Positions 8,412-20,706 of a DNA stretch of 64,000 nucleotides are shown one piece after another. Where the stretch lies: NCBI GenBank assembly GCA_958295945.1, contig OY282386.1:4458204-4522203 (forward strand), in the 5' to 3' direction. The stretch comes from Candidatus Poribacteria bacterium (lineage in GTDB: Bacteria > Poribacteria > WGA-4E > WGA-3G). Under the pieces are notes generated by a model that was not told the origin of the DNA, searched no databases, and was given only the letters and a program-made list of their open reading frames with translations. Numbering within the stretch: position 1 is the stretch's first letter; each line of letters begins with the position of its first letter. The position numbers and the translations under genes are program-made.

Positions 8412-8993
8412 CTACCGTTTCCTTCTTAATACCTGTGTGGTTTTCCCATCAGTACTCGTTAGGGTAAGTGTGTCTCCACTCAAATTCACATTCCACTTCT
8501 CAATTTTTTCGAAAAGTCGACCAGAGGTGACTGCCTCTGCAAAACCATCTTCTGTTATACCAGCTGATGTCCAGAAATCGGGTGGTTTCAGTTGGGCATT
8601 TAATGTCTCCAAGACAAGTTCCAACTCCATATCAGCACGTCTGAAGTGTCCACGTGCGGCCATCGCCACTTCTGGTAAGTAAGCAAGCCCACTTCCATCC
8701 TTTAATCTTGCTGTAATTTTTAATTCAAGCGTCCAGTTCCATATACCACTTGGAAAGAATATAAAGTCATTCTGAGCAATTTCTGTTTCTGTATCAACAT
8801 AATCCGCTTTAAGAGGAACAAAGTATTTCTCGACAGGTATACCCTCAATTGATACCATTTCCCATGAACCAGTTGTTATTAGTTGCGTTGGTGAAACCGT
8901 GTTTGTAATAGGATAAGGTTTCGCTGCACATCCAATAATAACAATATTTATACACAATAAAGCAATAATAGTAAACTTTCTTCTAATTTTCAT
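8412..8993 (-). CDS. Lipoprotein of unknown function
   Basis: The start at 8993 is set by GGAGGT five bases upstream. The 193-residue product begins with a type II signal peptide ending in the lipobox IVIIGC, so Cys is acylated and the protein is membrane-tethered. The mature part is beta-rich (TGSWEMVSIEG, WTLELKITARLKDGSG, DMELELVLETLN, WNVNLSGDTLTLTSTDGKTTQVLRR). It resembles small lipocalin-like or META-type domains that report a stabilising beta fold. No family can be named with confidence. The IS701-like insertion lies just upstream of its ribosome site (IS end at 9030), so its native promoter may have been displaced. Confidence 0.75.
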   Translation of the reverse strand: MKIRRKFTIIALLCINIVIIGCAAKPYPITNTVSPTQLITTGSWEMVSIEGIPVEKYFVPLKADYVDTETEIAQNDFIFFPSGIWNWTLELKITARLKDGSGLAYLPEVAMAARGHFRRADMELELVLETLNAQLKPPDFWTSAGITEDGFAEAVTSGRLFEKIEKWNVNLSGDTLTLTSTDGKTTQVLRRKR

Positions 8994-16451: not shown

Positions 16452-17144
16452 TCAAGACCGATCTTGCAGTAAGAAATCCTTATGCTGTGCTGGTTCACTT
16501 TTGTAAACTTCTATATATGTCCTCTGGTGGACGCTCTGATTTCTAATGAATCCATGTAGATCGTTATAGACGGTTTTTGTTGAAATGCCGTGCTGTTTTT
16601 GAAGATGATTTAACATCGGTTCTTTGAGGGACCCGGGAATATCTATTACAGTGAAGTTCTCAGGTTCAATAAAACCCTTCGGTGGACGAACAAATATGCT
16701 TTTCTGTGCTATAACACGGTTTCTTGGGTTTTGTGGTTCCTTAATTTTGTACTCTTCATTTGTCTTTTCAGTTCTTTGAAATAAAATTATCCTGCCGGGT
16801 TTTTCTGGGAAGCCGTCGCATGCGAAGAAAAGGGCTATATGGTTGTCGATTGTAAAGTCTATAAGATTGGTATGACCACCATAGTGTTGGAGTTCAGTTA
16901 AGATTTCAAAGTTATCTTCTTCATGAATATAATCTTTTGCCACTGTCAGCATTCGCTGTTGGATGGCTTCTATATCAAATTGCTCTGCTCCAAATACTTT
17001 ATCACATTCACGCCACAAGCTTGAGGATACCTTCTCATAGTGTTGAGGTTCACCGCGATAGATAAAGTCACCATCGGCGGTTGTTTCTGCTATTTCGCCG
17101 ATTATCTCCAAAATTCTGTTTAGTTCGGTTCTTTGTGTGTTCAA
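16452..17144 (-). CDS. FRG-domain protein
   Basis: 230 residues. The family signature is clear: FIYRGEPQHYEKVSSSLWRE near the N-terminus, then LTELQHYGGHTNLIDFTID and HIALFFACDG (about residues 70-105). FRG domains take their name from the F/Y-R-G motif, occur in accessory and defence regions, and are of unproved biochemical activity. The start appears to be TTG (17142-17144), since there is no ATG before the conserved region; GAGAG lies 8 bp upstream. It heads a two-gene unit with the TPR protein. Confidence 0.8.
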   Translation of the reverse strand: MNTQRTELNRILEIIGEIAETTADGDFIYRGEPQHYEKVSSSLWRECDKVFGAEQFDIEAIQQRMLTVAKDYIHEEDNFEILTELQHYGGHTNLIDFTIDNHIALFFACDGFPEKPGRIILFQRTEKTNEEYKIKEPQNPRNRVIAQKSIFVRPPKGFIEPENFTVIDIPGSLKEPMLNHLQKQHGISTKTVYNDLHGFIRNQSVHQRTYIEVYKSEPAQHKDFLLQDRS

Positions 17145-18392: not shown

Positions 18393-19097
18393 TCATAAGT
18401 GTCTTGTAACTTTTTGGGCTAATTCTTTTAAATTTAGAGAGTTTTGCTGTACAAAACTATCCCAAGATATATAACATCGAATAGATGCTTTTTTGGGTTT
18501 TGGAGCATCTTTGGTATTTTTCAATTTCAGAATTAAATGTTCCATTGTTTTTTGTATTTTCTTTGCAGTAGGGTAGTTAGGAAAGGCAGGAATCTTTTTT
18601 GCATCAATAAAACCTCGACGAATATTTTCTGGGTTGTGTTTAAGATTATATTTCCAAAATCTCCTTTCGTGTTTTTCTGCATCAAATTGTCCGAAATCAA
18701 ATCGTTGATGTTCAACGTCAGCAGACCAACTTTCAAAATCTTCTTTCAACTTTTTAAATAAATCCCTAGAAACGATAAATAGGTCAAGATCTGATTCATC
18801 ATCAGCAAAAAGTGCACCAAGTTTTTTGGGGTCAAGAGATTTGCCTAATTGTGCACTTCCTACTAAACCAATTTCTTTGACATTAACTTCTAAACGTTCA
18901 GCAATCCAACAACGAAGAGAATCGTATATAGCTGGACAAATGCAAAAAACAGACGGTATACCTTCAGATAACCATAATCTTGCAATTGCCTCCCGAGCTA
19001 CCTGACCACCTTGATGTGCTACTTGAAGTAACAATACTGGATCTGGATAATGGCAGACTAATTTTCGGAGCGGTACTTCAATTTCAAACGGTTTCAT
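18393..19097 (-). CDS. Nucleotidyltransferase-fold protein paired with a GT51 transglycosylase
   Basis: 234 residues. The nucleotidyltransferase signature is Gly80-Ser81 in IGLVGSAQLGKSLDP followed by Asp103 and Asp105 in ESDLDLFIVS, the GS...DxD metal-binding layout of the Pol-beta/MNT superfamily. The N-terminal 70 residues are a conserved-looking domain (VREAIARLWLSEGIPSVF-type helix). The ~100-residue C-terminus is basic. It overlaps the end of the transglycosylase gene by 14 bp, with AGGAAA just ahead of the ATG, so the pair is translationally coupled. The substrate is unknown; the fold includes antitoxins, CD-NTases and tRNA enzymes. Its placement in an island with methylase remnants hints at defence or stress function. 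Confidence 0.75.
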   Translation of the reverse strand: MKPFEIEVPLRKLVCHYPDPVLLLQVAHQGGQVAREAIARLWLSEGIPSVFCICPAIYDSLRCWIAERLEVNVKEIGLVGSAQLGKSLDPKKLGALFADDESDLDLFIVSRDLFKKLKEDFESWSADVEHQRFDFGQFDAEKHERRFWKYNLKHNPENIRRGFIDAKKIPAFPNYPTAKKIQKTMEHLILKLKNTKDAPKPKKASIRCYISWDSFVQQNSLNLKELAQKVTRHL

Positions 19098-19695
19098 TTT
19101 GAATTTCCTGATAAGGTTTTAGACTTTCGCCCATCTTGTTGGCTAATGTTATTAAATGATGACCTCTACGTTGAATTTTCTCTAAATGTTTAGGACTACA
19201 TTCTCTTGGTTCTGGATATTTCAATCGCGCTACAAGTTGCGCAGCTTCAAAAACACTGACTGTTTTTGGATCAATTTTCAGTCTCGCGCAGGCTTGCGTA
19301 AAATCATTCATTCCCCAACCGTAGTACGCAACCCATAAGTAGAGGGTTGGCAATCGGTCTTTCGGAAGATATCGCGTCAAACGTACAGCGAAAACGATCT
19401 CAAGAAGTTTTCGCTGCCATGTTTTCTCATAACGACTTGTGATTGTTCTAACAAACTGCATTGCGATTGTTGAACCACCTTGTCTTTCTCCGCAGAAAAA
19501 AGTTTTCCAAAATGCTCTACAAAGAGCGAGTAGATCAACACCAGGATGCTCATAAAAACGATGGTCTTCACCAACTATAAGCAGTTTACACATTTGGGGT
19601 GTTGGGATAGGAACATCAGTTTGAGCGATTTCTAACTCCAGTTTCTTGATTGTGTCACACAGTTGATCCCATTGGACTTTGATAGGTATACGCAT
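19084..19695 (-). CDS. Stand-alone GT51 peptidoglycan transglycosylase-like protein without a membrane anchor
   Basis: About 203 residues from the ATG at 19695 (GGGAAA upstream); the frame extends to 19782 but has no ribosome site there. GT51 motifs are intact: GEDHRFYEHPGVD with catalytic Glu43, and RQGGSTIAMQFVR (71-83), followed by RKLLEIVFAVRLTRYLPKDRLPTLYL split over two helices. MtgA and PBP1 enzymes of this family polymerise lipid II but carry an N-terminal transmembrane helix. None is seen here, nor a transpeptidase domain. Coupled by overlap to a nucleotidyltransferase gene, it is unlikely to be the housekeeping enzyme. Confidence 0.8.
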   Translation of the reverse strand: MRIPIKVQWDQLCDTIKKLELEIAQTDVPIPTPQMCKLLIVGEDHRFYEHPGVDLLALCRAFWKTFFCGERQGGSTIAMQFVRTITSRYEKTWQRKLLEIVFAVRLTRYLPKDRLPTLYLWVAYYGWGMNDFTQACARLKIDPKTVSVFEAAQLVARLKYPEPRECSPKHLEKIQRRGHHLITLANKMGESLKPYQEIQNETV

Positions 19696-19975
19696 AAAAA
19701 TTTCCCATGCAATAATAATTCTTGATCTCACTATAGAGTTCAAAATAAACTTCTTAACTTCCAACAAATAACATTTTATCATATCAAATATTATAAATCA
19801 AGGAGTGTGTCAGGAATATCAGGTTACGGTGCCCTGCTAATATGCGGTTGTTTATTTGTGATACAAGATGTTTTGTTATTAAGATCGGTTTTCAACTATA
19901 GAAGTTTATGAATGGATTGACACGGAAGCATTAGCACCAATCTTAAAATGCATGTAATCCGCGACAATTCGCGAT

Positions 19976-20706
19976 TCATACACCCTCCACAACCGCAATC
20001 TCATCGTCAGTTAAGCCATACAAATCGTAAACCAGTCTATCAATCTCATTTTCAAGGTCAGAAGTGTCAGCGTCCGGGTCAGTGTGTTTAGCATCAAGGA
20101 TTTGATCCACGAGCTTAATAATAGGGACTTGCTGCTCAGGTGATACATCTGGAATAGGCAGCTCTTTAGCATCATTCGGATAAAAGTGTAACCCCTCGCT
20201 TAAGAAACACCGGAAATACCAGTTTATGAAATTAGAATTTAGAATGCCCAAAAGAAATTTGTAATCGTATTTCTTAGCGAAGTCGGTATCAGAAATACGC
20301 AACACACGTCGAGCAGACGTATGAGTTGCTTTTGAAAGCAAATCTAATCGAACGCAGTTTATGACCGTATGACTATTGTAAAAACCTTTATCATCATAAG
20401 CGAATCGCAGCCGATCTTTTACAACGTTGATAAACATAAGTTTTTTGTTCTCAAACAACTCTGGAAATATCGGGTTATAGTGTTCATCTGGTATATAATT
20501 TAACCACCCTTCTTGCGTAAATAAATAACGCTCAATGTTTTTCCCTTCACAGAATCGTTTATTACCTGAAATTTGAGACTGACTAATATAGTGTGCTTTT
20601 CCCAATTTCTCTGAACGGTGATTAAGCCTTGTCCCGTAAGCAACAAAGCAAAATTGTATACTTAGAGTCAAGAAAACAATTCTATTTGGGTGTCAAAGTC
20701 TGTCAT
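19976..20706 (-). pseudogene. Broken type IIG (Eco57I/TaqI-like) restriction-methylase, C-terminal specificity part
   Basis: Residues from VAYGTRLNHRSEKLG to the stop match the specificity and C-terminal part of Eco57I/PglX-like methylases: the GNKRFCEGKNIERY, FYNSHTVINCVRL, LLGILNSNFINWYF and ELPIPDVSPEQQ motifs are in the usual order. No methyltransferase core (NPPY) or N-terminal body is present. A short frame MTDFDTQIELFS (20668-20706) lies just upstream in another frame and may be the original N-terminus, implying an internal deletion plus frameshift. Not expected to be functional. Confidence 0.75.

Follow-up and report, generated by a model that had tools for sequence, protein, structure and literature searches.

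The window analysed here, a stretch of 64,000 nucleotides from Candidatus Poribacteria, contains a gene for a GT51 peptidoglycan glycosyltransferase that overlaps a gene with a nucleotidyltransferase (NTase) motif. This arrangement raises the question of whether the two genes belong together and, if so, what a wall-building enzyme without a membrane anchor would do alongside an NTase. The features concerned are as follows.

19084..19695, minus strand: GT51 gene, 203 aa, ATG at 19695, without transmembrane anchor or signal peptide (ORF list, Pfam, hydropathy)
18393..19097, minus strand: NTase-motif gene (Pol-beta-type), 234 aa (ORF list; motif)
19084..19097, minus strand: overlap of the two genes, 14 nt, with the NTase ATG inside the end of the GT51 gene
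19976..20671, minus strand: neighbouring C-terminal fragment of a type IIG restriction-methyltransferase (TaqI_C), context only
16452..17144, minus strand: neighbouring FRG-domain protein matching the candidate defence family PDC-S15 (PADLOC), context only

Both reading frames and their 14-bp overlap were found as described in the first-pass annotation of this DNA, and so were the motifs EDHRFYEHPGVD and RQGGSTIAMQ that it quoted from the GT51 protein. The "methylase remnants" that it mentioned correspond to the type IIG/TaqI-like C-terminal fragment at 19976-20671 (minus strand), which is a remnant, since no upstream part of it is seen nearby.

The GT51 protein

Judged by its sequence, the 203-aa protein is certainly a GT51 peptidoglycan glycosyltransferase domain protein. 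It matches Pfam Transgly (PF00912) with an E-value of 2e-29 (102.7 bits against a cut-off of 27), and a profile of the GT51 group (A4) searched against PDB sequences gave S. aureus MGT (SaMGT) as the best match (8e-23). The structure model is weak (pLDDT 53.8); its best fold match is nonetheless SaMGT. Alignment to SaMGT places the catalytic glutamates at E43 and E99 (203-aa numbering), and both are invariant in the GT51 proteins from all seven loci at which the pair was found, in agreement with the earlier statement that the catalytic motifs are intact. The glutamates of motif I (ED) and motif III (RKxxE) are thus both present in the pair members, being among 39 positions that are invariant across the seven loci.

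With MtgA, S. aureus MGT and the GT domains of class A PBPs, the pair GT51s share the domain itself, the catalytic glutamates, motifs I and II, and RK..E. They differ from these enzymes in having neither a transmembrane anchor nor a transpeptidase domain, in forming a clade of their own (support 100/100), and in having an NTase gene alongside at all loci found. They also have no Asn where the usual YLN motif (motif IV region) has one, and they end in ARLKYPEP; because of these two changes their acceptor or product may differ.

The absence of an anchor, noted in the first-pass annotation, does not depend on the choice of start codon. The GT51 reading frame can be opened from position 19782, and the resulting extension has a 19-residue hydropathy maximum of 1.36, against 3.27 and 2.31 in the two PBPs of the same genome. 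In the relatives the start corresponds to 19695 and is preceded by a purine-rich stretch of similar kind; upstream of the ATG at 19695 lies a GGGAAATTTTT/GGGAGATTCTA-like stretch that is common to them. No transmembrane anchor was found in any of the seven pair GT51s, the best 19-residue hydropathy being below 1.5 in all of them. A wrong start hiding an anchor is ruled out, because the extension from 19782 contains no transmembrane stretch and is not conserved.

GT51 is a universal housekeeping fold, and the best NCBIfam match of the window protein is PBP_1c, as would be expected if it were a housekeeping MtgA or PBP1 with a mis-called start that happens to lie next to an unrelated gene. However, the PBP1C model scores 98 bits against a cut-off of 494, and the MtgA model 60 bits against an equivalog cut-off of 183. 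In a maximum-likelihood tree of the seven pair GT51s, E. coli MrcA, MrcB, PbpC and MtgA, and 14 Poribacteria PBPs, the pair proteins formed one group with 100/100 support, apart from PBP1A/1B/1C/MtgA. The grouping with housekeeping MtgA/PBP1 that the first-pass annotation had considered is therefore absent. A housekeeping paralogue is ruled out by the tree and by scores far under the equivalog cut-offs; with no anchor at any start and with the pair recurring in four lineages, we regard this explanation as already refuted and its remaining probability as negligible.

The NTase-motif protein

The second protein is a predicted nucleotidyltransferase, an assignment supported at the level of its motif, GSAQLGKS..P.KLG...SDLD (G80-S81 ... 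S102-D103-L104-D105). The GS and SD.D residues are invariant in the seven pair NTases as well as in 13 of 13 members of the wider, diverged family. All seven pair NTases share D165 (in GFID), which could be the third catalytic carboxylate. Altogether, 51 positions are invariant across the seven loci, the catalytic ones included.

The Pol-beta-type motif named in the earlier description is present and invariant (GS...SDLD), in line with the hG[GS]...Dx[DE] pattern of the superfamily. Pfam NTP_transf_2 stayed below threshold, with E-values of 0.057 for the window NTase, 0.013 for the Aliarcobacter relative and 0.013-0.28 across the relatives tested. The AlphaFold model has low confidence (pLDDT 51.5) and its fold search returned no significant match; an NTase profile search of the PDB gave chance matches only.

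Distribution of the pair

The GT51-NTase pair was found at no fewer than seven loci, namely in four Poribacteria genomes, on one plasmid and in two proviruses, which represent four lineages. According to a protein search, the full-length NTase is present in 4 of 85 Poribacteria genomes (the window's own, G030, G052 and G082), belonging to two genera. Among the matches listed for the GT51 profile, the stand-alone GT51 occurs in exactly the same four genomes, while the other listed matches, about 750-1000 aa long, are housekeeping proteins, with at least one in every one of the 85 genomes. Outside Poribacteria, the pair is carried by the Aliarcobacter cryaerophilus plasmid pM830MA, by a P2-like prophage contig (nearest phages Erwinia phage ENT90 and Escherichia P2 relatives), and by a second provirus, which has genes for lysis, Dam and an integrase and whose best matches are Pseudomonas phages. 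The pairing is thus not lineage-restricted, a possibility that the first-pass annotation had left standing, and the plasmid and provirus copies rule out a curiosity of a single lineage.

GT51 precedes NTase at all seven loci. The 14-nt overlap is kept at five of them, i.e., in all four Poribacteria and in Aliarcobacter, where the NTase has a TTG start; the junction is a 25-nt gap in the P2-like prophage and a 2-nt gap in the second provirus. Protein identity is 32-94% between loci and 32-52% between lineages. Since four lineages have the same pair, in the same order, the position of the NTase-motif gene beside the GT51 gene is more than chance, and the two genes almost certainly constitute one predicted two-gene functional unit.

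No DNA similarity to the P2-like pair or to the L027 pair was detected in E. coli genomes. Phage records searched with the NTase gave no match; searched with GT51, they gave partial matches of 27-41% identity, none covering 80% of the query. Degenerate-pattern scans of viral contigs recovered the two proviruses only, the further pattern matches being spurious.

Genomic neighbourhoods

Each of the seven loci either is a mobile element or adjoins restriction/defence genes. In G082 and G052, the pair sits between a helicase-type res-like gene and a type III mod gene; the mod gene is a PADLOC match, and the putative res-like gene was assigned by sequence and position, without a PADLOC match. In G030 (L017), the pair is followed downstream by a type II methylase gene and by two genes with weak REase-like matches. 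The Aliarcobacter pair is surrounded by Septu-like PDC-M01A/B, bSEFIR (1e-83), a DrmC-like gene, PDC-S21 and a gene for a DUF4365 protein. In the P2-like prophage the pair occupies a cargo position after gene D, and in the second provirus a cargo position between the lysis/Dam genes and the integrase.

Several further genes were observed at these loci. A 647-aa DUF4365-TPR protein, weakly Aga_REase-like (PADLOC), is encoded directly downstream of the Aliarcobacter pair (L019:10717-12660) and could be a third component at that locus only. A TIR-TPR protein with a ThsB-like match (E 7e-24) is encoded in the restriction locus of G052 (L031:10273-11634), with a transposase-like gene between it and the pair. 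A 179-aa ORF without a Pfam, PHROG or PADLOC match lies between gene D of the P2-like prophage and the pair (L021:6644-7183). In genome G049, a C-terminal NTase remnant (L032, about 8500-8730; 69% identity) lies between a res-like and a mod gene; the pair has decayed there, at the site where G052 and G082 still carry it.

The suggestion made from the window that the pair is a candidate defence module gains support from these neighbourhoods, with their restriction/defence genes and mobile elements. A role in defence or conflict is therefore likely, on the basis of guilt by association at every locus, which we consider strong. The layout is that of toxin-antitoxin/Abi systems as well, with adjacent same-strand genes recurring in four lineages on mobile elements or in defence islands (seven loci).

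The same neighbourhoods bear on two other explanations. The pair might be a lysogenic-conversion or envelope-modification cassette, in which altered peptidoglycan or lipid-linked precursors would block the adsorption, injection or lysis of other phages without suicide of the host; GT51 chemistry is envelope-directed, and in two of the four independent lineages the pair is carried as provirus cargo. However, no member has an export signal or an anchor, two lineages are non-phage and sit in restriction/defence loci, and the NTase would be left without an obvious role, all of which makes this explanation quite improbable. Two small overlapping genes on mobile elements would also fit plain addiction to a plasmid or prophage, by a toxin-antitoxin module that has not been selected for action against phages, and an NTase antitoxin has a precedent (PMC3710099). 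However, the copies in chromosomes do not stand alone but are grouped with restriction genes, and we consider this explanation unlikely.

Proposed function

The explanation that we favour, to which we give about an even chance, is that the two genes form a conflict module that spreads horizontally, its most likely type being anti-phage abortive infection or a toxin-antitoxin system. This explanation builds on the conserved pair and its order, the usual overlap, the intact GT51 residues without an anchor, the patchy distribution, and the mobile or defence loci; to these the model adds a presumed cytoplasmic location, substrate, toxicity, nucleotidylation and trigger.

GT51 enzymes normally act at the outer face of the membrane. 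The pair GT51 would stay in the cytoplasm, because it has no export signal, and would attach to the inner leaflet by the hydrophobic patch that is part of the GT51 fold. Upon infection it would be released or activated, and would polymerise or trap lipid II before MurJ flips it. Lipid II polymerised or trapped inside would jam the undecaprenyl carrier cycle, so that growth would halt before phage release. That GT51 is the effector and stops growth by acting on lipid II at the inner side falls slightly short of an even chance in our judgement. By analogy with MNT-HEPN (PMC3710099), the NTase would probably nucleotidylate GT51, or merely bind it, and thereby keep it silent, and infection would lift this control; the NTase as a covalent regulator of GT51 is a tentative proposal that we hold to be somewhat doubtful. 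An undescribed class of immunity in which a soluble, NTase-controlled GT51 polymerises lipid II in the cytoplasm and halts the infected cell is, in this full form, possible but rather unlikely.

AbiEii and MenT are NTase toxins, i.e., NTases with GS...DxD in two-gene bacterial conflict modules. The pair NTase has no sequence match to either (Pfam, NCBIfam, PADLOC), and its partner is a GT51 instead of a small antitoxin. Neither the window GT51 nor the window NTase matched any PADLOC model, and the sole PADLOC match of the Aliarcobacter NTase was a weak one to Cyclase (E 0.005). MNT-HEPN dyads resemble the pair in that they too combine an NTase gene with the gene of a partner enzyme, in mobile or defence surroundings (PMC3710099). 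According to the same study, the MNT partner has been proposed to control HEPN toxins, which provides the precedent for an NTase antitoxin, and the antitoxin gene is usually upstream (PMC3710099). In contrast, the NTase of the pair lies downstream of its partner, that partner is GT51 in place of a HEPN RNase, and the NTase falls below the Pfam cut-off.

No description of the pair was found in the curated families of Pfam, NCBIfam and PADLOC, and a full-text literature search, which covered few subscription papers, returned nothing relevant linking GT51, lipid II or the NTase with defence or toxin-antitoxin systems. NTase-containing two-gene conflict modules are a known kind of system; the new part is the GT51 component, which we did not find described in any defence or toxin-antitoxin system within the literature searched. 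If confirmed, the favoured explanation would mean that bacteria and prophages turn their own wall-building chemistry inwards as a response to infection, and it would provide a natural anchor-free GT51 for biochemistry and work on lipid II.

An NTase family with apparently exchangeable partners

Distant relatives of the NTase occur in Poribacteria, one of them in the window's own genome, and at all seven readable loci a DUF262 gene follows the NTase gene. Two plasmids carry the same combination, and in the DUF262 pairs the gene order is reversed relative to the GT51-NTase pair. The loci are the following.

NTase-DUF262 loci in Poribacteria: L005:1381-3008, L010, L011, L012, L013, L014, L016
NTase-DUF262 loci on plasmids: L020:5878-7534 (Pseudoalteromonas) and L022:329-1975 (Cronobacter)

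The NTase family thus appears, from these gene neighbours, to be a constant part with swappable partners, GT51 or DUF262; if this is confirmed, the immune repertoire gains an NTase family with exchangeable partners.

This observation bears on the main rival to the favoured explanation, in which the roles are exchanged: the NTase would be the effector or signal synthase and GT51 the sensor or inhibitor, binding lipid II or phage-disturbed envelope intermediates at the inner leaflet and licensing the NTase to modify tRNA, protein or nucleotides. The NTase is the shared part, its paralogues standing with DUF262 at the seven Poribacteria loci and on the two plasmids, and DUF262 proteins are DNA-modification sensors in GmrSD/BrxU/SspE (PMC10952713), so that a constant effector with variable sensors is possible. 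However, the DUF262 pairs have the reversed gene order, and GT51 has strictly retained its two catalytic glutamates, for which a protein that only senses would have no use; we regard this rival as unlikely, though it deserves more weight than the addiction module.

Two DUF262 proteins, from the Poribacteria locus L005 and from Pseudoalteromonas, were tested and matched GmrSD_N, NsnA (E 1.6e-37 and 1.9e-40) and PD-T4-2_A. Through these partners the NTase paralogues are linked to Menshen (NsnABC) and PD-T4-2. In those systems the partner is of the OLD type or a HEPN protein (PMC10952713), GT51 is absent, and the NTase matches none of their PADLOC models. The NTase-DUF262 combination is apparently a second undescribed pair.
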